DNA from: a virus
Reading direction: 5' to 3' (one strand)
IMG/VR virus record: IMGVR_UViG_3300031616_000003
Span: 1-64,000 of that record
Length of the DNA stretch: 64,000 nt
Under the pieces are notes generated by a model. It was given only the letters and a program-made list of their open reading frames with translations. It made no database searches and was not told where the DNA came from. Every line of letters begins with the position of its first letter. The stretch's first letter is position 1. The position numbers and the translations under genes were made by a program. Below are positions 9,381 to 56,484 of this stretch, piece after piece.

Positions 9381-10465
9381 CGGGGCGTGAACGCCATCCG
9401 TACGCGGGTGTTGGCCCCGGCGCCGTCGACCTCCAGGCCGATGACGTTGGGTCCGTCGGTGAGCGGCCACAGCTCGGTGCCGGAGGTGTTGAACCAGTCG
9501 ATGAACTTCGACAGGTTCGCGTCGCCGGGGCCGCGCACGGTGGGCCGGTCGGTGGTGATCGTGATGGTCTGCTGATCACCCAGCGTGTAGGTCAGCGCGA
9601 AGCGGGTGCCCAGGGTCACGTTCCAGGCGCGTAGCTGCGTCATCGGGCCGGTGATGGTCCAGGTCGGCCAGGCGTCGACGTCGCCGGTGTTGTTGATCGT
9701 GGTCAGCGAGGCGGGGTTGTCGGTGCCGCCGCCGCTTCCGCCGGAGTTGCCGCCCGAGTCCGGGTCGTCGTCGGTCGGCGGAGTGCCCGAGCCCACCACG
9801 TTGCTGCTGCTCAGGCTGATGAACGGGGCGTAGAAGGTGATCGGGTCGTCGTTACCGCCGGCCCCGCCACCGGGGTCGCCACCGGGGTCGGTCCCGGTGG
9901 TCGTCGGCGTGAACGTGCGTTCGGCCACCACGGAGGTGCCGGAGCGCCACTTGCCGTCCGGGCAGTACAGGGTGATAACCGGCCGGGCGAACAGGTGGTT
10001 CTGCTCGCTCTCGCCGCCCAGGCCGTCGGAGTAGAAGCACTCGATCTCCCGGACGGTTCCCGACGGGCGCTGCACCCGCAGGATCCCGGGCCGCTGGCGC
10101 CGGGTGGTCAAGGTGAACGCCCTCGAGATGCGCCGGTAGCGGGTCACGAACTCGTCGTGGGTCCGGCCGAAGATCTCCATCGGCCACTGCAGGACCGACG
10201 GCTTGTTCTGGATGGAGCGGATCGCCTCGCCGCCACGCGGCAGGGTATCGGTGGTGATCTCGATGGGGGCCGCGCCCCAGCCGGCCGGGCCCATCAGGGT
10301 GAACCAGCCGAGGGTCTCGCTGGTGTTGCTCAGCGCCCACTCGCGCCCGTCCGGGTCGATCCACGTGAAGACCGGCGCGCCGACCGTCTCGTGGTAGGCC
10401 ACGGTGGGCGGGGTGACGATGTCCTCGGGATTGACGACGACCAGACCGCCGGCGAGCAGTGGCAT
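9365..10465 (-). CDS. Distal tail-like (Dit-type) protein
   Basis: 366 aa. The first 190 residues, with a WFTLMGPAGWGAAPIEI strand and RRISRAFTLTTRRQRPGILRV, have the pattern of siphovirus distal tail/tail-component proteins. A Gly/Asp/Pro-rich low-complexity stretch (about 195-255) leads to a C-terminal beta-sandwich of carbohydrate-binding type (about 258-366) with DVDAWPTWTITGP. It sits directly after the tape-measure gene, as expected for Dit. The C-terminal module is probably an accessory glycan-binding domain. Confidence 0.75.
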   Translation of the reverse strand: MPLLAGGLVVVNPEDIVTPPTVAYHETVGAPVFTWIDPDGREWALSNTSETLGWFTLMGPAGWGAAPIEITTDTLPRGGEAIRSIQNKPSVLQWPMEIFGRTHDEFVTRYRRISRAFTLTTRRQRPGILRVQRPSGTVREIECFYSDGLGGESEQNHLFARPVITLYCPDGKWRSGTSVVAERTFTPTTTGTDPGGDPGGGAGGNDDPITFYAPFISLSSSNVVGSGTPPTDDDPDSGGNSGGSGGGTDNPASLTTINNTGDVDAWPTWTITGPMTQLRAWNVTLGTRFALTYTLGDQQTITITTDRPTVRGPGDANLSKFIDWFNTSGTELWPLTDGPNVIGLEVDGAGANTRVRMAFTPRYDNS

Positions 10466-49691: not shown

Positions 49692-50117
49692 TCAGAAATT
49701 ACCCTCAGCGCACTGGAAAACGGTGAGGCCCAGCCGGCGCCACATCCGGACGACCTTGTCCCGGTCGTCGACCACGAACGCGACGTCGTAGTGCGGCAGG
49801 ACGCGTTCCTGGTACAGCTCGAGCTTGACGACGTCGTCCGGCCGGTTGTCCTTGTGCGGGCGCATGATCAGCTCTCGGAACCAGACCTGCTGCTCGCCCA
49901 GGCTCCGGAAGGTGGCCTCGTAGCAGACCTCGTCACGACCGGACATCACCACGATCTCCAGGTCGCCGGCCTTGATGATGCTGTGGGCCAGCTCGACCAC
50001 GGCCTCGTTCGGGGTGTCCTCGCCGACTCGGTGCCAGTCGTAGAACTTGCGCCCGCCGGTGTTCTTCATCAGGGTGCCGTCCACGTCGAACAGCACCACG
50101 CGGGGCTTAACGATCAC
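49692..50117 (-). CDS. HAD phosphatase of polynucleotide kinase 3'-phosphatase type
   Basis: 141 aa from GTG at 50117. VLFDVDGTLM (motif I, Asp11 and Asp13), IVVMSGRDEVC (motif II), K in the middle and VDDRDKVVRMWRRLGLTVFQCAEGNF match the phosphatase domain of T4 Pnkp and similar phage proteins. Expected reaction: removal of 3'-phosphates or 2',3'-cyclic phosphates from nucleic acid ends. No kinase domain is fused. With a 33-tRNA array nearby it could help repair cleaved tRNAs, which is inference. Confidence 0.8.
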   Translation of the reverse strand: MIVKPRVVLFDVDGTLMKNTGGRKFYDWHRVGEDTPNEAVVELAHSIIKAGDLEIVVMSGRDEVCYEATFRSLGEQQVWFRELIMRPHKDNRPDDVVKLELYQERVLPHYDVAFVVDDRDKVVRMWRRLGLTVFQCAEGNF

Positions 50118-50343
50118 TATGGTTCTCCCTGGCCATGAAGGTCCACGCCCATCCCTGGGTGTAGTCGCAGTCGCCGCGAGGGCAGTGCCAGCCCTCGCCG
50201 GTAGCAACGAGCGAGACGCCCGATTCGTGCTGGCGGTCCTGGCCACGGCCGCAGGTGAAGGGGTGGAAGGGTCCGTGTTCCTGGTATTGGTTCAGCGCCG
50301 CGGCGACTTCCGGGCCCCAGGGGGCGAAGATTTTGTCCGGCAT
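50107..50343 (-). CDS. Zn-binding small protein
   Basis: 78 aa: HPFTCGRGQDRQHESGVSLVATGEGWHCPRGDCDYTQGWAWTF gives C, H, C, C ligands for a zinc ribbon of the type with WxCPxxDCxYTQxW. Overlaps both neighbours. ATG at 50343 is shared with the stop of the preceding gene. Confidence 0.75.
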   Translation of the reverse strand: MPDKIFAPWGPEVAAALNQYQEHGPFHPFTCGRGQDRQHESGVSLVATGEGWHCPRGDCDYTQGWAWTFMARENHSDR

Positions 50344-51869: not shown

Positions 51870-52210
51870 AGGACCACCTGCGCATCCGGGGCGCGCATGA
51901 CCCGGCCGTAGCGTTTGCAGTAGTCCTGGTGCAGCTCGCCCTCGCCGGCCGAGCAGGTAGCACAGCCGTACCGGTCGCTGGTGCGGTGCGGGAAGCGGTC
52001 CGGCGTGAAGCCGAGCTTCCAAGCCCTGGTGCCGAACTCCACGGTCGTGGCCGCGCTTAGGATCGCCGAGGCCGCGCGGGCGCCCAGATGATCCGGGTTG
52101 GCGATCGCGCCGCTGGCCATCAGGCTGTCCTCGTACTCCCGCTGGACCTCGGCGGCGATCCGCTCGTACAGGCTCACCATCTGCGGGTCGTTGTCCCAGT
52201 TGATGTCCAC
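51866..52210 (-). CDS. 114-aa first gene of the leftward block
   Basis: Helical start (QMVSLYERIAAEVQREYEDSLMASG) and CATCSAGEGELHQDYCKRYG with three Cys and one His. GTG at 52210 is preceded by GAGGAGG and a promoter motif. It is the first gene left of the divergent intergenic region. Confidence 0.75.
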   Translation of the reverse strand: MDINWDNDPQMVSLYERIAAEVQREYEDSLMASGAIANPDHLGARAASAILSAATTVEFGTRAWKLGFTPDRFPHRTSDRYGCATCSAGEGELHQDYCKRYGRVMRAPDAQVVL

Positions 52211-52238
52211 GTTCGTCCGGCCTCCTCAAGTTTGAGAC

Positions 52239-52261
52239 AGCGTACAACATCAGGTGCGACA
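52239..52261 (-). promoter_or_regulatory. Promoter motif TGTCG-N12-TACGCT, leftward
   Basis: Minus strand: TGTCG (52261-52257), 12 nt, TACGCT (52244-52239). It faces the leftward gene at 52210. One nt longer spacing than the other sites. Confidence 0.65.
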
Positions 52262-52300
52262 GACCGGCACGTGCCACGATCACGTGAAATCCCAGCATGC

Positions 52301-52529
52301 AATAAACGAAAACCCCCTGCATAGCTCTTGCCATACCCGGGGATTAAACGGACATCGCGCGATAGCAAGTGCCATCCGAGGGTTTTCTGTTTATTCGGCC
52401 GGACCGACGTTCGCGCAGGTCAGGCCCTACGCGAAAATTCCGGAAACTCGGCCATAGCAAGTGCCATACCCGGGGTTTCCGCAGAAAACCCCCGGATGGC
52501 ACTTGCTATGCAGGGGTTTTCGTTTAATT
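52301..52529. repeat. Four copies of a conserved element in the divergent intergenic region
   Basis: The core ATAGCAAGTGCCAT occurs at 52362-52375, 52454-52467 and, inverted, at 52496-52509; a variant ATAGCTCTTGCCAT is at 52321-52334. Each core is flanked by CCC(C) and GGGG runs next to A or T tracts. The last two copies make a palindrome over 52454-52509 with a 14-bp perfect outer stem. The region is clearly richer in A/T than its surroundings and lies between leftward and rightward genes. It may be a replication origin, partition site or operator array. The rest of 52211-52798 shows no gene. Confidence 0.8.
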
Positions 52530-52697
52530 CCTCACCAGGTGGGACTCTCGCGTACCCTGGGGCAAGGTCGGAGGCGTGCTAGCCCACCCCTCCCCACCCT
52601 GCGCTCCACGGGTCGTTGGTCCGTCCCTGTCGGCCGCGCGAGGCGAAGACCCGGGCGCCCTCCCCCTTCCAGTGCCGCCCGGGTCCACGCCCGGTGA

Positions 52698-52719
52698 TGT
52701 CACGACACACCTGTATGCT
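52698..52719 (+). promoter_or_regulatory. Promoter motif TGTCA-N11-TATGCT, rightward
   Basis: TGTCA 52698-52702, 11 nt, TATGCT 52714-52719. It starts a rightward transcript over the 42-aa gene and toward the tRNA array. Confidence 0.6.
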
Positions 52720-52798
52720 CCTTCGAGGAAAACCCTTGTGCGCCAGGCGTGGATCACCTACGGTTGGTGTCAAGCAGAACTAGACGAGGAGCCCCGAG

Positions 52799-52927
52799 AT
52801 GTATCGCTGGCACGCCACGAGCAACCCGCAGCACATGCTGCCGGGCTCGGCAGCCTGCGCCCTCGGGACAATCAACTTCGTCCGCGATGAGCAGTCCCGC
52901 AAGCCCGGAACGAGGCGGCGCCCCTAG
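52799..52927 (+). CDS. 42-aa hypothetical protein before the tRNA array
   Basis: MYRWHATSNPQHMLPGSAAC then ALGTINFVRDEQSRKPG and a basic end. GAGGAG lies 8 nt before the ATG and a promoter motif 80 nt upstream, and a strong terminator follows the stop. These signals support a short expressed gene; the protein has no known relatives that I recognise. Confidence 0.6.
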   Translation: MYRWHATSNPQHMLPGSAACALGTINFVRDEQSRKPGTRRRP

Positions 52928-52944
52928 CGCCACGGTCACACAGA

Positions 52945-52977
52945 CGCCGCCTCCGAACTCGGAGAGCGGCGTTTTTT
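52945..52977 (+). terminator. Rho-independent terminator
   Basis: CGCCGC-CTCCG stem (52945-52955) pairs with CGGAG-A-GCGGCG (52960-52971), with one bulge, and is followed by TTTTTT (52972-52977). It ends the transcript of the 42-aa gene and separates it from the tRNA array. Confidence 0.85.
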
Positions 52978-52996
52978 CGTAGGTCAAACAACTGAA

Positions 52997-53009
52997 TAGG
53001 CACCACCGA
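52997..53009 (+). promoter_or_regulatory. Likely promoter of the tRNA array, starting at the tRNA 5' end
   Basis: TAGGCA (52997-53002) is followed after exactly 7 nt by the first base of tRNA-Trp. The same 7-nt distance separates -10 hexamers from start codons of leaderless genes here, so transcription may begin at the mature tRNA 5' end. Confidence 0.5.
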
Positions 53010-53082
53010 GTGGGTGTAGTTCAACTGGTAGAGCAGCTGCCTCCAAAACAGCAAGTTGCAGGTTCGAGTCCTGTCGCCCGCG
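53010..53082 (+). tRNA. tRNA-Trp(CCA)
   Basis: Seven-bp acceptor stem, D-arm, anticodon loop CTCCAAA and T-arm with GGTTCGAGT. Pair 31-39 is C-A. First gene of the array. Confidence 0.9.
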
Positions 53083-53125
53083 CGTACGGTCCCCCGAGAA
53101 CCTTTGGGCATGGACATGGCACCAC

Positions 53126-53155
53126 TTGAGAACTGCACAGTGGAATGGCATGAGA
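53126..53155 (+). promoter_or_regulatory. rRNA-leader-like motif in the tRNA array
   Basis: TTGAGAACTGCACAGTGGA (53126-53144), then GGCATGAG, resembles the conserved TTGAGAACT-ACAGTGGA-GCA leader element in front of actinobacterial 16S rRNA genes, used for antitermination and processing. Recognised from memory. It lies between the first and second tRNA genes. Confidence 0.55.
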
Positions 53156-53156
53156 T

Positions 53157-53180
53157 CGCCCGGCGGTACGCCGCCGGGCG
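53157..53180 (+). other. Strong hairpin with TACG loop
   Basis: A perfect 10-bp stem (53157-53166 with 53171-53180) around a TACG tetraloop, directly after the rRNA-leader-like motif and 4 nt before tRNA-Ala. No T-run; more likely a processing or antitermination structure than a terminator. Confidence 0.6.
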
Positions 53181-53184
53181 CAAT

Positions 53185-53257
53185 GGGGCCTTGGCGCAGC
53201 TGGTAGCGCGTCGGTATGGCATACCGAAGGTCGTGGGTTCGAATCCCGCAGGCTCCA
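53185..53257 (+). tRNA. tRNA-Ala(GGC)
   Basis: Complete cloverleaf; anticodon loop ATGGCAT closed by TCGGT/ACCGA; T-loop TTCGAAT. Confidence 0.95.
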
Positions 53258-53262
53258 CTCAC

Positions 53263-53335
53263 GCTCGTGTAGCTCAGTTGGGAGAGCGCTGCTCTGAAAA
53301 GGCAGAGGCCGCCGGATCGATACCGGCCGCGAGCA
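53263..53335 (+). tRNA. tRNA-Phe(GAA)
   Basis: Complete cloverleaf; anticodon loop CTGAAAA. The T-loop reads ATCGATA, so position 54 is A instead of the usual T. Confidence 0.92.
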
Positions 53336-53385
53336 CGTCGTCGCCGGTCTGGTCAGGGCGCCATCCCTGCCGGCGGCGGCTCCAT

Positions 53386-53460
53386 GGGCCACTGGAGCTG
53401 TTGGCAAAGCTCATCTCGTTCTCAGCGAGAAGATCGTCGGTTCGAGCCCGACGTGGCCTA
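53386..53460 (+). tRNA. tRNA-Glu(CTC)
   Basis: Acceptor GGGCCAC/GTGGCCT, anticodon stem TCTCG/CGAGA around TTCTCAG, T-loop TTCGAGC. Confidence 0.93.
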
Positions 53461-53469
53461 CGCAACAAT

Positions 53470-53540
53470 GCGGACGTAGCTCAATGGCAGAGCTTCTGTC
53501 TTCCAAACAGACCACGCGAGTTCGATTCTCGTCGTCCGCT
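53470..53540 (+). tRNA. tRNA-Gly(TCC)
   Basis: Acceptor GCGGACG/CGTCCGC; anticodon loop CTTCCAA; T-loop TTCGATT. Confidence 0.95.
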
Positions 53541-53547
53541 CTTTCGC

Positions 53548-53624
53548 TCCGGGTTGGGCTGTTGGCAGGCTCGACGGGGTTTTGGTCCCCGGTACAGACG
53601 CGGGTTCGAATCCTGCACCCGGAA
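53548..53624 (+). tRNA. tRNA-Gln(TTG)
   Basis: Acceptor TCCGGGT/ACCCGGA; anticodon stem CGGGG/CCCCG around TTTTGGT. The D-stem has wobble pairs and the variable region is 8 nt, so the fold is less regular than its neighbours. Confidence 0.85.
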
Positions 53625-53629
53625 CAAAT

Positions 53630-53702
53630 GCCGCCGAAGCTCAGCTGGTTGAGCACCCGCATGGTAAGCGGGAGGCTGAGAGTTCGAATCTCTCCGGTGG
53701 CT
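53630..53702 (+). tRNA. tRNA-Thr(GGT)
   Basis: Complete cloverleaf; anticodon loop ATGGTAA closed by CCCGC/GCGGG; T-loop TTCGAAT. Confidence 0.95.
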
Positions 53703-53714
53703 CGTAAATGCAAT

Positions 53715-53787
53715 GCGGCAGTAGCTCAGTAGGTAGAGCGCGACGTTGCCAACGTCGAGGTGGCGGGTTCGAGACCCGTCTGTCGCT
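53715..53787 (+). tRNA. tRNA-Gly(GCC)
   Basis: Acceptor GCGGCAG/CTGTCGC; anticodon loop TTGCCAA; T-loop TTCGAGA. Confidence 0.95.
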
Positions 53788-53830
53788 CTCGCCCCGGTAT
53801 CTTTTGATCAAAGAAAAGGAGGTGATCCCG

Positions 53831-54271
53831 GTGAGCGACGTCCTGGTCATCAACGCCGACCTGGGGCCCCTGCACCGGGTGCCTCTGAAACACGCGATCC
53901 GGATGCTGGTCCGCGAGGTCGCCGAGATCCACGACTTTGAGCCCGACAAGCTGATCGGCATCTTCCCGATGCCGCGGGTGGTCCGGCTCATCCGGTACGT
54001 CTACACGAAGTGGCGACACACCAGCGGTCCCGGTTGGTCCCGGGCCGGCGTGCTCAAGCGTGACGGCGACCGCTGCGGCTACTGCCGCGGCGCGGCCACC
54101 ACGGTCGACCACATCCAGCCGCGCTCGCGCAGCGGCCGCAACAGCTGGAAGAACACCGTGGCGAGCTGCTACCGGTGTAACCAGGCCAAGGCCAACCGCA
54201 CGCCGGCCGAGGCCGGCATGAGGCTGCTGGTGACCACCGCAGCCCCCACGTGGGCTTCTCTCGCCCACTGA
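53831..54271 (+). CDS. HNH endonuclease inside the tRNA array
   Basis: 146 aa from GTG at 53831 behind a perfect AAGGAGGTGAT site. N-terminal VLVINADLGPLHRVPLKHAIRMLVREVAEIH, then CGYCRGAATTVDHIQPRSRSGRNSWKNTVASCYRCNQAKANRTPAEAG: two CxxC pairs frame the HNH metal site (DHI, N, and a final N/K). Such genes can be homing endonucleases or DNA-maintenance nucleases. It interrupts the array between tRNA-Gly and tRNA-Gln, which fits invasion of the array by a mobile HNH gene. Confidence 0.88.
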   Translation: MSDVLVINADLGPLHRVPLKHAIRMLVREVAEIHDFEPDKLIGIFPMPRVVRLIRYVYTKWRHTSGPGWSRAGVLKRDGDRCGYCRGAATTVDHIQPRSRSGRNSWKNTVASCYRCNQAKANRTPAEAGMRLLVTTAAPTWASLAH

Positions 54272-54273
54272 TC

Positions 54274-54348
54274 GCCAGGCCGACGCCCTGTTGCCGCGGG
54301 GCGCGAGTTGAAGGCGCGGAACAAGCACGCCCGCGACGTCGGCCTGGC
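54274..54348 (+). ncRNA. Unclassified structured RNA A (75 nt) in the tRNA array
   Basis: The ends form a perfect 12-bp stem (54274-54285 with 54337-54348). Inside, GCGC (54301-54304) pairs with GCGC (54314-54317), and GCGG with CCGC can form a further hairpin. There is no GTTCRA T-loop and no anticodon arm of standard form. It is tRNA-sized and lies 5 nt before tRNA-Gln. Confidence 0.5.
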
Positions 54349-54353
54349 CCCAT

Positions 54354-54426
54354 TCCCCGCTGGTGTAACTGGCAGCACGCCTGATTCTGGATCAGGAAGC
54401 CTTGGGTTCGAATCCTGGGTGGGGAG
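54354..54426 (+). tRNA. tRNA-Gln(CTG)
   Basis: Acceptor TCCCCGC/GTGGGGA; anticodon loop TTCTGGA closed by CCTGA/TCAGG; T-loop TTCGAAT. Confidence 0.94.
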
Positions 54427-54482
54427 CGTTGACCCTGCGCTGTCATGCTGCCAGCCCGCGAGAGCCGGGCCAGGGTCCACAT

Positions 54483-54614
54483 GCCGGGGTAGTTCAGCGG
54501 AAGAACACCGCCGCCTCTCGCCTCAGCGTGGTCTGGCCAGACGCGCACGGGGCCCGGGTGTACAACCGGGAGGTTCGCAGGCGGAGGTCGCAGGTTCGAA
54601 TCCTGTCTCTGGCC
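54483..54614 (+). tRNA. tRNA with a 60-nt insertion in the anticodon loop, possibly Arg(TCG)
   Basis: The two ends match over all stems: acceptor GCCGGGG/CTCTGGC, D-stem GTTC/GAAC, anticodon stem CCGCC/GGCGG and a T-arm with TTCGAAT. About 60 nt of self-complementary sequence lie between the anticodon stem strands. If removed just after the 5' strand, the loop is GTTCGCA, giving anticodon TCG, though C at 37 is unusual. Too short for a group I intron. Identity and removal are uncertain. Confidence 0.6.
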
Positions 54615-54618
54615 CAAT

Positions 54619-54691
54619 GCCGATGCAGCTCAGCAGGTAGAGCACGCCACTCGTAATGGCGAGGGCTCCGGTTCGAGTCCGGACTTCGGCT
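54619..54691 (+). tRNA. tRNA-Thr(CGT)
   Basis: Anticodon loop CTCGTAA closed by CGCCA/TGGCG; T-loop TTCGAGT. One T-T mismatch in the acceptor stem. Confidence 0.92.
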
Positions 54692-54696
54692 CTCAT

Positions 54697-54780
54697 GCGC
54701 TCGTGGTGGAAATGGTAGTCACGCCGGTTTCAGAAACCGGTCTCCGCGAGGAGGTGGGAGTTCGACTCTCCCCGGGCGCA
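54697..54780 (+). tRNA. tRNA-Leu(CAG)
   Basis: Class II tRNA with a variable arm; anticodon loop TTCAGAA closed by CCGGT/ACCGG; acceptor GCGCTCG/CGGGCGC. Confidence 0.94.
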
Positions 54781-54782
54781 CT

Positions 54783-54878
54783 GGACGATCACCGCGAAGG
54801 CAGGCAGGTAGCACCCAGCCTGGCCGGAGCCCTTTAGCACCGGAGCCCGGGTAGCGCCCGGGGGAGCGGTGATCGTCC
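54783..54878 (+). ncRNA. Unclassified cloverleaf-like RNA B (96 nt)
   Basis: Perfect 13-bp terminal stem (54783-54795 with 54866-54878). Three internal hairpins: CAGGC/GCCTG (54801-54805, 54818-54822), CCGG/CCGG (54824-54827, 54840-54843) and CCCGGG/CCCGGG (54846-54851, 54857-54862). TAGC(A/G)CC recurs in each arm (near 54809, 54835 and 54852). No T-loop or anticodon arm. It lies 2 nt after tRNA-Leu and 5 nt before tRNA-Ala. Confidence 0.6.
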
Positions 54879-54883
54879 GCAAT

Positions 54884-54956
54884 GGGGTTATAGCTCAATT
54901 GGTAGAGCACTCGTTTCGCATGCGAGAGGTTCGGGGTTCGACTCCCCGTGGCTCCA
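54884..54956 (+). tRNA. tRNA-Ala(CGC)
   Basis: Complete cloverleaf; anticodon loop TTCGCAT; T-loop TTCGACT. Confidence 0.95.
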
Positions 54957-54959
54957 CGT

Positions 54960-55024
54960 GGTTCGCGTTACCTTTCGGAGGGGCCCGGGACGCCGGGGGT
55001 GAGGTTTGAAGCCCACCGCGAACC
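54960..55024 (+). ncRNA. Unclassified cloverleaf-like RNA C (65 nt)
   Basis: Perfect 8-bp terminal stem GGTTCGCG/CGCGAACC (54960-54967 with 55017-55024). Inner hairpins are CCT/AGG around TTCGG, CCCGG/CCGGG around GACG, and GGTG/CACC. A weak T-loop resemblance (GGTTTGAAGCC) exists but the arm does not pair as in tRNA. Lies 3 nt after tRNA-Ala. Confidence 0.5.
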
Positions 55025-55030
55025 CCCAAT

Positions 55031-55104
55031 GTCGCCGCAGAGCAGATGGAGTGCTCACCTCCCTGTCAAGGAGGAGATCGCGGGTTCGAGTCCCGTCGGT
55101 GACG
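55031..55104 (+). tRNA. tRNA-Asp(GTC)
   Basis: Anticodon loop CTGTCAA closed by CCTCC/GGAGG; D-stem GAGC/GCTC; T-loop TTCGAGT. Confidence 0.95.
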
Positions 55105-55109
55105 CGCAA

Positions 55110-55195
55110 GGAAGGGTGGCATGAGCGGCCTATGGCACTGCCCTGCTAAGGCAGATCGGGTAACACCGACGAGGGTTCGAATCCCTCTCCTTCCT
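55110..55195 (+). tRNA. tRNA-Ser(GCT)
   Basis: Class II with variable arm; anticodon loop CTGCTAA closed by CTGCC/GGCAG; acceptor GGAAGGG/TCCTTCC. Confidence 0.94.
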
Positions 55196-55199
55196 CCAG

Positions 55200-55273
55200 G
55201 TCGTCGTAGCTCAGTCGGTTAGAGCGCTTCGCTGATAACGAAGAGGTGGGTGGTTCGATTCCACTCGGCGACA
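55200..55273 (+). tRNA. tRNA-Ile(GAT)
   Basis: Acceptor GTCGTCG/CGGCGAC; anticodon loop CTGATAA; T-loop TTCGATT. Confidence 0.95.
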
Positions 55274-55283
55274 CGCAATTCAT

Positions 55284-55356
55284 GCCCTTGTAGCTCAGTG
55301 GATAGAGCGCCGCACTACGGATGCGGAAGTCGGAGGTTCGAATCCTCTCGGGGGCA
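55284..55356 (+). tRNA. tRNA-Arg(ACG)
   Basis: Anticodon loop CTACGGA closed by CCGCA/TGCGG; A34 is expected to be edited to inosine by host TadA. Confidence 0.95.
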
Positions 55357-55361
55357 CGTAA

Positions 55362-55435
55362 CGGGACGTAGCTCAGTTTGGTAGAGCACACGGCTGGGGG
55401 CCGTGCGGCCGGGCGTTCAAATCGCCCCGTCCCGA
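55362..55435 (+). tRNA. tRNA-Pro(GGG)
   Basis: Acceptor CGGGACG/CGTCCCG; anticodon loop CTGGGGG; T-loop TTCAAAT. Confidence 0.95.
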
Positions 55436-55447
55436 CGCAAGGAACAT

Positions 55448-55521
55448 CTGGGTATGGCTCAGGTTGGTAGAGCGCTGGTTTCGGGAATCAGAGGACGGGG
55501 GTTCAAATCCCTCTACCCAGA
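55448..55521 (+). tRNA. tRNA-Pro(CGG)
   Basis: Acceptor CTGGGTA/TACCCAG; anticodon loop TTCGGGA closed by CTGGT/ATCAG; T-loop TTCAAAT. Confidence 0.95.
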
Positions 55522-55525
55522 CTCT

Positions 55526-55610
55526 GGAGGGTACCGCGGCACAGGGCCGCAACAGGTCTCGAAAACCTGTGGGTCGGGAAACCGGCGGCGTTCGACCCGT
55601 CTACCTTCCG
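55526..55610 (+). tRNA. tRNA-Ser(CGA)
   Basis: Class II; anticodon loop CTCGAAA closed by CAGGT/ACCTG; CCA is encoded directly after the discriminator base (55611-55613). Confidence 0.93.
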
Positions 55611-55614
55611 CCAA

Positions 55615-55686
55615 GCCCCCGTAGCTCAGAGGAAGAGCAACCGACTCTTAATCGGTGGGCCGGGATATCGTAATTCCCCGGGGGCA
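55615..55686 (+). tRNA. tRNA-Lys(CTT) with degenerate T-arm
   Basis: Acceptor GCCCCCG/CGGGGGC and anticodon loop CTCTTAA are standard, but the T-arm reads GGGAT-ATCGTAA-TTCCC: pair 53-61 is T-T and the loop lacks T54. Probably still foldable, but it departs from the rule. Confidence 0.85.
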
Positions 55687-55690
55687 CTTC

Positions 55691-55762
55691 GCGGTGCGTG
55701 CGCTGGACGCGCTTCTCGATCTTCTAAATCGTGTGTGCCGGGTTCGATTCCCGGGTGCCGCA
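55691..55762 (+). tRNA. tRNA-Arg(TCT)
   Basis: Anticodon loop CTTCTAA; acceptor GCGGTGC/GTGCCGC; T-loop TTCGATT. D-loop is short and one anticodon-stem pair (T-T) is missing. Confidence 0.88.
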
Positions 55763-55778
55763 CCGTTACGATCTGCTC

Positions 55779-56033
55779 GTGACCGATCCTCAGGTGGCCG
55801 ACCATCTGGCCAAGCTGGCCAATATCCTGCTCGACCTGGACCGCTGCAAGCACGGCCGGCACAGTATCGACCCGTGCTTCAGCTGTCCCGACGGGATGTC
55901 GGCTGGCAACCCGCACCTGAAGCCAGGCGAGATCATCGGCTACGGGCTCAGCGGGGTGCCGATCCGGATGCCGGATCGCAGCCGCGGCGAGCACCCGTAC
56001 GACGTCGAGTCCTGGCGCACCATGCCCTCGTAG
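55779..56033 (+). CDS. 84-aa Zn-binding-like protein between tRNA genes
   Basis: DPQVADHLAKLANILLDLDRCKHGRHSIDPCFSCPDGMSAGNPHLKPGEIIGYGLSGVPIRM: a helical start and C..H..H..C..C residues that suit zinc. GTG at 55779 lies 6 nt after TACGAT with no ribosome site, so it may be leaderless. Its last codons and stop lie inside the next tRNA gene (overlap 56024-56033). Confidence 0.65.
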   Translation: MTDPQVADHLAKLANILLDLDRCKHGRHSIDPCFSCPDGMSAGNPHLKPGEIIGYGLSGVPIRMPDRSRGEHPYDVESWRTMPS

Positions 56034-56096
56034 CTCAGGGGATAGAGCAGTCGCCTCCTAAGTGAAAGGTCGGCGGTTCGATTCCGCCCGAGGGCA
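56024..56096 (+). tRNA. tRNA-Arg(CCT)
   Basis: Acceptor GCCCTCG/CGAGGGC; anticodon loop CTCCTAA; one mismatch in the anticodon stem. CCA is encoded after the discriminator (56097-56099). Confidence 0.92.
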
Positions 56097-56100
56097 CCAA

Positions 56101-56172
56101 GGGCCGCTAGCTCAGTGGCAGAGCTGCCGACTTTTAATCGGAATGTCCAGAGTTCGATTCTCTGGCGGCCTA
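56101..56172 (+). tRNA. tRNA-Lys(TTT)
   Basis: Anticodon loop CTTTTAA; acceptor GGGCCGC/GCGGCCT; T-loop TTCGATT. Confidence 0.93.
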
Positions 56173-56176
56173 CCTC

Positions 56177-56250
56177 CTCCGCGTAGCTCAGCCTGGCAGA
56201 GCATCTGTTCGACACACAGAAGGTCGGGGGTTCAATTCCCTCCGCGGAGA
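56177..56250 (+). tRNA. tRNA-Val(GAC) with C at position 33
   Basis: Acceptor CTCCGCG/CGCGGAG; anticodon stem TCTGT/ACAGA closes TCGACAC, so the nearly universal U33 is C. CCA is encoded (56251-56253). Confidence 0.85.
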
Positions 56251-56254
56251 CCAT

Positions 56255-56329
56255 GGGGTCGTGGACAAATAGCGCAAAGTCGCCGTCCTTTCAAGGCGGA
56301 ATCTGCGGGTTCAAATCCCGTCGGCCCTA
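56255..56329 (+). tRNA. tRNA-Glu(TTC)
   Basis: Anticodon loop CTTTCAA closed by CCGTC/GGCGG; short D-stem GAC/GTC; T-loop TTCAAAT. Confidence 0.9.
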
Positions 56330-56334
56330 CTCAT

Positions 56335-56405
56335 TCCCTCGTCGTTCAATGGCAGGACAGCGGACTGTTAATCCGCCGACGCTGGTTCGACCCCAGCCGA
56401 GGGAG
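56335..56405 (+). tRNA. tRNA-Asn(GTT)
   Basis: Acceptor TCCCTCG/CGAGGGA; anticodon loop CTGTTAA closed by GCGGA/TCCGC; T-loop TTCGACC. Confidence 0.95.
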
Positions 56406-56410
56406 CGCAA

Positions 56411-56482
56411 GCCCGCATAGCTCATCGGGAGAGCGCCGCTTTCACACAGCGGAGGCGCCAGGTTCGACACCTGGTGTGGGCA
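56411..56482 (+). tRNA. tRNA-Val(CAC)
   Basis: Anticodon loop TTCACAC closed by CCGCT/AGCGG; acceptor GCCCGCA/TGTGGGC. Confidence 0.95.
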
Positions 56483-56484
56483 CT

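Follow-up and report, generated by a model that had tools for sequence, protein, structure and literature searches.

A tRNA gene within a phage tRNA array carries an insert of 60 nucleotides in its anticodon loop, and the same interrupted gene occupies the same place in the syntenic array of a second virus. The predicted fold, its conservation, the compensating base changes between the two copies and the position within the array are directly supported. The reading that we favour, with about even confidence, is that the gene encodes an unspliced structured RNA scaffolded on a tRNA, rather than a tRNA with an excised mini-intron, a decoy or a decaying gene.

The interrupted gene and its locus

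The gene lies in the IMG/VR virus record IMGVR_UViG_3300031616_000003, which comprises 71,079 bases and is possibly a fragment. The window is the stretch of 64,000 nucleotides at the start of this record, and has a G+C content of 68.8%; the remaining part (64001-71079) was covered by the family and model searches. The virus is a tailed phage, marked by capsid, portal, tail, DNA polymerase III and integrase families. An HNH gene upstream led to a second sequence, termed L006, from a viral contig of 130,757 bases. The elements of the locus are as follows, all on the + strand of the window.

53010-57110 (+): tRNA array holding the interrupted gene; 30 tRNAs by default ARAGORN; syntenic in L006
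54428-54482 (+): conserved hairpin-forming spacer from tRNA-Gln to the interrupted tRNA; 94.5% identity to L006 over aligned bases, where ordinary tRNA pairs reach 73-96%
54483-54614 (+): interrupted tRNA gene, a tRNA body plus a 60-nt anticodon-loop insert; identified by Rfam RF00005 and the homologue L006:6706-6839
54483-54489 (+): 5' strand of the acceptor stem, pairing with 54607-54613; two G-U pairs; base 73 is C
54492-54506 (+): D arm; one compensatory pair relative to L006
54508-54512 (+): P1, 5' strand of the anticodon stem, CCGCC; 3' strand GGCGG at 54580-54584; CCTCC/GGAGG in L006, a compensatory change
54514-54573 (+): 60-nt cassette closed by P2; same fold in the window and L006
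54514-54517 with 54570-54573 (+): P2, CCUC with GAGG, extended by G54513-U54574
54520-54553 (+): hairpin P3 of the insert, apical loop GGCC; relative to L006, three compensatory and two one-sided changes that keep pairing, none broken
54554-54569 (+): hairpin P4, CCGG-GUGUACAA-CCGG; loop invariant in L006 and containing the 6-nt palindrome UGUACA
54574-54579 (+): remainder of the anticodon loop, UUCGCA (UUCUCA in L006)
54590-54606 (+): T arm; relative to L006, one compensatory pair and one G-U to G-C change

The Rfam model RF00005 matches 54483-54614 from end to end with a score of 44.3 bits against a gathering threshold of 29 (E = 3.4e-7 over 6 kb and 8.9e-9 over 156 nt). The acceptor, D, anticodon and T stems all pair in this match, confirming the initial annotation that the four stems form between the two outer parts of the gene. 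The anticodon loop in the alignment is 67 nt long, where 7 is normal. The extra length, earlier put at about 60 nt, is exactly 60 (54514-54573) when the loop is taken as G54513 plus UUCGCA (54574-54579), and the gene as it stands in the window does not show an anticodon loop of 7 nt in which position 33 is U and position 37 a purine. The interrupted gene is absent from the 30 window tRNAs returned by default ARAGORN. The insert had also been described as rich in inverted repeats. Its hairpins do form in the predicted fold, but the repeats are unremarkable and the stability is like that of shuffled sequences, with z = -0.08 for the gene and 0.10 for 54509-54585. It is the tRNA score, together with conservation and compensating changes in L006, rather than the stability of the fold, that places the gene beyond chance.

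On the same strand the gene is flanked by tRNA-Gln(CUG), ending at 54427, and tRNA-Thr(CGU), starting at 54619, both called by ARAGORN. The spacer following tRNA-Gln has a fold energy of about -23 kcal/mol, and may be part of the same unit as the interrupted tRNA. Elsewhere in the array the spacer between tRNA-Trp and tRNA-Ala (53124-53161) is identical to that of L006 across 38 nt, while most other spacers are unalignable. A tRNA-Tyr at about 56564-56646 was missed by ARAGORN; it is near-identical to a tRNA-Tyr called in L006 (9256-9339).

Comparison with the homologous gene in L006

ARAGORN finds 29 tRNAs in the L006 array, in nearly the same order as in the window, and the interrupted gene is again present (L006:6706-6839), flanked by the same two tRNAs. 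The window gene is therefore not a pair of unrelated remnants. Two separate intact tRNA genes were looked for at this position in relatives, and the sole relative found has the interrupted gene instead.

Model R1 scores the two copies at 154.2 and 152.9 bits and any other match at 62.1 bits or less, and the best of these other matches are ordinary tRNAs. Carriers of the gene thus number two among the sequences found, the window and L006. R1 gave no third homologue in 22 records, nor in sets of 15, 17 and 90 loci, the last being 90 of the 120 loci of L107-L226 searched at E≤1e-5 among the matches listed. DNA searches of named phages returned no homologue of insert or spacer among the matches listed. 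A pattern scan of viral contigs gave, besides the contig of L006, only L013, where the match is an ordinary tRNA-Tyr, and the spacer pattern gave no viral contig other than that of L006. Six stretches were found on scanning genome contigs; none contains an ARAGORN tRNA or an R1 match at E≤0.5, and all were rejected.

When each copy is folded alone, the same architecture results: P1, a short P2, the long hairpin P3 and the short hairpin P4. By hand count there are 36 base pairs outside the acceptor stem, of which 27 are the same in both copies, six are changed on both sides with pairing kept, three are changed on one side with pairing kept, and none is broken. Half of the six double changes fall within the insert. 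In a MAFFT alignment, which misplaces part of P3, 27 pairs could be compared; four are changed on both sides, falling to 0-1 when the partners are slid. The observed counts, with four double changes, were reached by 23 of 500 shuffles, and the power of the covariation is limited because there are only two sequences. In the acceptor stem of L006 one or three pairs are broken, depending on the register.

Identity between the copies over aligned bases is 86.2% for the insert, 84.5% for the body and 85.3% for the whole gene. Across 24 pairs of ordinary tRNAs from the two arrays it is 73-96%. Insert and body both lie within this range, and the gene has therefore been kept like a tRNA. Given the compensating changes in L006, the insert appears to be a functional RNA element and not the debris of a broken gene. 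The view that the insert must either be excised or leave the tRNA dead is not supported, since the retention of its helices through compensating changes suggests that the insert has a function of its own.

Retention or removal of the insert

The reading of a retained cassette would run as follows. A 60-nt cassette closed by P2 would have entered a gene of the phage array, probably one for tRNA-Arg, at the boundary of positions 32 and 33. The RNA would be transcribed together with its neighbours and, because just 4 nt separate it from tRNA-Thr, would have to be trimmed with them as well. Its acceptor, D and T end would fold as a tRNA. The cassette would be kept permanently, extending the anticodon arm with P1 stacked on P2, followed by P3 and P4. 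The tRNA half could then provide processing, stability and tRNA-like recognition, with the cassette as the working end, and the invariant palindromic loop of P4 would perhaps contact a different RNA or another molecule of the same kind. Counting against this reading are the restriction to two carriers, the 23 of 500 shuffles and the ordinary fold energy.

Potential routes of excision were sought by family and structure. No group I or group II intron was matched in Rfam at E≤1 over either 52000-58000 or 54470-54625, consistent with the initial annotation that the insert, at 60 nt, is far too short for either. The splicing endonuclease (PF01974), RtcB (PF01139) and the RNA ligases PF09414 and PF09511 have no match in the 71-kb record or the L006 record. 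PF01974 was found in none of six phage records; among 14 named genomes searched as a control it was found in four, all of them archaea. A bulge-helix-bulge motif consists of a 3-nt bulge, a 4-bp helix and a 3-nt bulge at the exon-intron junction. The junction predicted here is instead a one-sided internal loop, with 0-1 by 5-6 nt unpaired, and an archaeal-type intron is rejected on structure. That excision would call for an unfamiliar route was therefore well judged; no known one was found with Rfam and these four families. A search of titles and abstract openings, largely outside the subscription journals, found no phage tRNA described as having its anticodon loop interrupted by a short insert that is not a ribozyme, and the word 'intron' is absent from the accessible text of a survey of viral tRNA genes (PMC6409571). 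The RNA-repair tools of jumbo phages, according to the accessible text of PMC7824862, include RNA ligases, kinases and TROVE proteins.

The cassette might nevertheless be a mini-intron, with host or phage RNases cutting at the base of P2 and RNA repair sealing the halves to give tRNA-Arg, with anticodon UCG in the window and UCU in L006. Removal at P2 would leave 72 nt (window) or 73 nt (L006) with a 7-nt loop, G-UUC(G/U)CA, placing U33 and an Arg-type anticodon in both; the register in L006 (G+UUCUCA, with U33 and C37) was assigned by eye from the alignment. The body is nearest to tRNA-Arg in both copies, by small margins (34.0 v 31.0 and 32.0 v 31.5, with 865 distinct sequences). The residual loop, its anticodon and the Arg-like body count against the scaffold because an intron predicts them too. 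Moreover, ARAGORN finds no other tRNA-Arg(UCU) in L006, and the family search places a PNKP-type phosphatase domain in the window (49692-50246). Yet the residual loop carries an unusual C37 in both copies, which together with C73 in the window and the flawed acceptor stem of L006 marks against a working tRNA. The window already has a separate tRNA-Arg(UCU) called by ARAGORN, the junction is not of the bulge-helix-bulge type, and the RNA ligase, RtcB and tRNA endonuclease families are absent from both records, although the window record is perhaps incomplete and RtcB could come from the host. Retention of the insert is favoured because the acceptor stem, required for charging, is the flawed part in L006, because of C73 in the window, and because none of the excision registers in the window gives U33 together with a purine at 37. 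We consider excision unlikely. The flawed stem, C37 and C73 would also be expected of a pseudogene left to decay after the insertion had disrupted the tRNA. Against this, insert and body are as conserved as other tRNAs, and the six compensatory pairs, with none broken outside the acceptor stem, make such decay improbable.

An RNA that keeps its tRNA body while its decoding loop is disrupted could also act as a decoy or sponge, presenting itself as a tRNA to host anticodon nucleases, or to other proteins that bind tRNA, without decoding, and some phages with such arrays do have RNA-ligase genes. Positive evidence for the decoy against anticodon nucleases proposed earlier was not found; no canonical anticodon loop is displayed, the loop of P4 being 8 nt, and nothing ties the RNA to any nuclease. 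We regard this role as improbable too. The window encodes Ro60 (57452-59056, TROVE) at the end of the array with a YrlA-like RNA just upstream, raising the idea of a Ro60-binding Y RNA, an unpermuted YrlA with its Ro60 module on the anticodon end; the YrlA order of T arm, hairpin and D arm does put the Ro60 stem on the anticodon side. In the interrupted gene the D arm precedes the T arm. YrlA matches the gene only at 54584-54645 (23.6 bits), an alignment that extends into tRNA-Thr, and similar weak matches occur across the array. The strand motifs of Y RNAs miss the interrupted gene, though this is a weak test that misses the YrlA-like RNA of the window as well. The Ro60 link is rejected mainly because TROVE has no match in the L006 record, all 130,757 bases of it, although the interrupted tRNA is present there, and we judge it very improbable.

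The YrlA-like RNA itself (57279-57382), directly before the Ro60 gene, scores 48.1 bits, below the gathering threshold of 69, and no YrlA match above gathering was found in the 71-kb record or the L006 record. Apparent tandem YrlA-type Y RNAs are present upstream of phage Ro60 in L109, L115, L128, L142, L161, L162 and L165, just before position 10001. Of 79 Ro60 loci, 48 have upstream matches to two strand motifs chosen ad hoc, a raw count uncalibrated against chance.

Known systems and other expanded tRNA-like RNAs

Engineered tRNA scaffolds bear a recombinant structured RNA on the anticodon stem of a tRNA. These are man-made, whereas the window RNA would have arisen in nature. Should the cassette stay, phages would have invented the tRNA scaffold that laboratories use for RNA stabilisation, and non-decoding RNAs would be hidden within tRNA arrays, skipped by standard tRNA finders. 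Should it be removed, short tRNA introns would be handled in bacterial viruses by a protein-based route, of a sort so far considered missing from bacteria.

tmRNA (RF00023) resembles a tRNA at its acceptor and T end but has a different RNA domain in place of the anticodon arm, and the window gene is similarly tRNA-like with an RNA domain added at the anticodon arm. It differs in having a full D arm, and no tag frame or pseudoknots were seen; RF00023 matches nothing in the region at E≤1, and there is no ARAGORN tmRNA in the window. YrlA (RF02553) likewise imitates a tRNA and has its functional stem on the anticodon side, and one lies beside Ro60 in the window. Unlike the interrupted gene it is permuted, with the T arm before the D arm, and is without tRNA ends, and the L006 record is without Ro60. 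Group I introns are self-splicing ribozymes of hundreds of nucleotides. Bacterial tRNA introns are placed with group I in the accessible text of PMC4090602, inserted like our cassette in the anticodon region, but the window insert has just 60 nt and no Rfam match. The protein-spliced introns of archaea and eukaryotes are also short, structured inserts in the anticodon loop; their canonical site is one nucleotide 3' of the anticodon (same text), whereas the window insert lies between 32 and 33, has no bulge-helix-bulge and is in a phage without a PF01974 gene. GOLLD and ROOL are phage RNAs often near tRNA islands (accessible text of PMC12286853), but they are hundreds of nucleotides long and outside tRNAs, and neither is matched here in Rfam.

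Further expanded tRNA-like RNAs are present, unannotated, in other actinophages. ARAGORN with introns allowed mostly fused neighbouring tRNAs, and matches overlapping an ordinary tRNA by >15 nt were dropped; the filter removes the window gene too, because ARAGORN fused it to tRNA-Thr. In one such search 17 matches survived. Several of them (L109, L115, L128, L142, L161, L162 and L165), with VanLee, appear to be tandem permuted Y RNAs read across two copies, and because of this resemblance were not counted as interrupted tRNAs. A reading that counted VanLee and JustBecause as further cases, with the anticodon arm displaced, was dropped. LuckySocke (L018:17843-17969) and Alone3 (L014:18022-18147) have an unannotated tRNA of 126-127 nt whose anticodon stem encloses two hairpins. 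This is the architecture of the window gene, with no sequence similarity beyond the tRNA, and homology is not demonstrable. Both are cultured phages, recorded from the host strain Streptomyces lividans JI 1326. L006:10880-11027 (- strand) and L107:16798-16936, identical in 102 of 158 aligned columns, lie on two viral contigs and are apparently a second case of homologous interrupted tRNA genes.

One hairpin loop of LuckySocke is CUGAUCA. The 6-nt palindromes are thus UGUACA in the window and L006, and UGAUCA in LuckySocke and Alone3. A 6-nt palindrome in a hairpin loop arose in 7 of 400 dinucleotide shuffles each for the window, L006 and LuckySocke, the first two not being independent. The insert of L006:10880-11027 has no palindromic loop, where 7 of 400 of its shuffles have at least one, and this counts against the pattern. 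In the accessible text of PMC12286853, the symmetric kissing loops of OLE and GOLLD switch between palindromes such as GGCC, GAUC and AGCU. By analogy the P4 loop hints at kissing-loop pairing, which we treat as a lead. Tentatively, and with considerable doubt, we propose an RNA class absent from the literature searched, comprising tRNAs with a permanent, selected two-hairpin cassette in which kissing of P4 would create a dimeric scaffolded device.

JustBecause W07 (MH744418.1; 88323-88440, - strand) and Frankenweenie (L083:6757-6876, - strand) have a class II tRNA whose enlarged anticodon loop contains a hairpin. The stem of this small hairpin is changed between them yet paired, CCG/CGG against CCC/GGG, and the annotation of JustBecause covers 88324-88395 only, as tRNA-Ser. 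Full-model tmRNA matches of about 81 nt occur at L015:17025-17105, L016:18949-19029, L017:15304-15384 and L018:17977-18057 (57-64 bits, gathering 47), each a tRNA-like end without the tag frame. A tRNA-like RNA of 155 nt with an extra domain in the variable region has BLAST matches in 13 Streptomyces phage records, five of them over most of its length. Its copies include the following.

L018:7775-7929, L014:8130-8284, L015:7205-7358 and L016:9419-9573: copies of the 155-nt tRNA-like RNA
L073, L074, L075, L076 and L079:5548-5781: further copies, 234 nt in Satis

No RNA feature is annotated beneath this RNA, and a hypothetical protein overlaps it in LuckySocke. Eight aligned copies share GGGUCUGUAGGGAAGCGCG and the loop AAA(A/G)CGGA.
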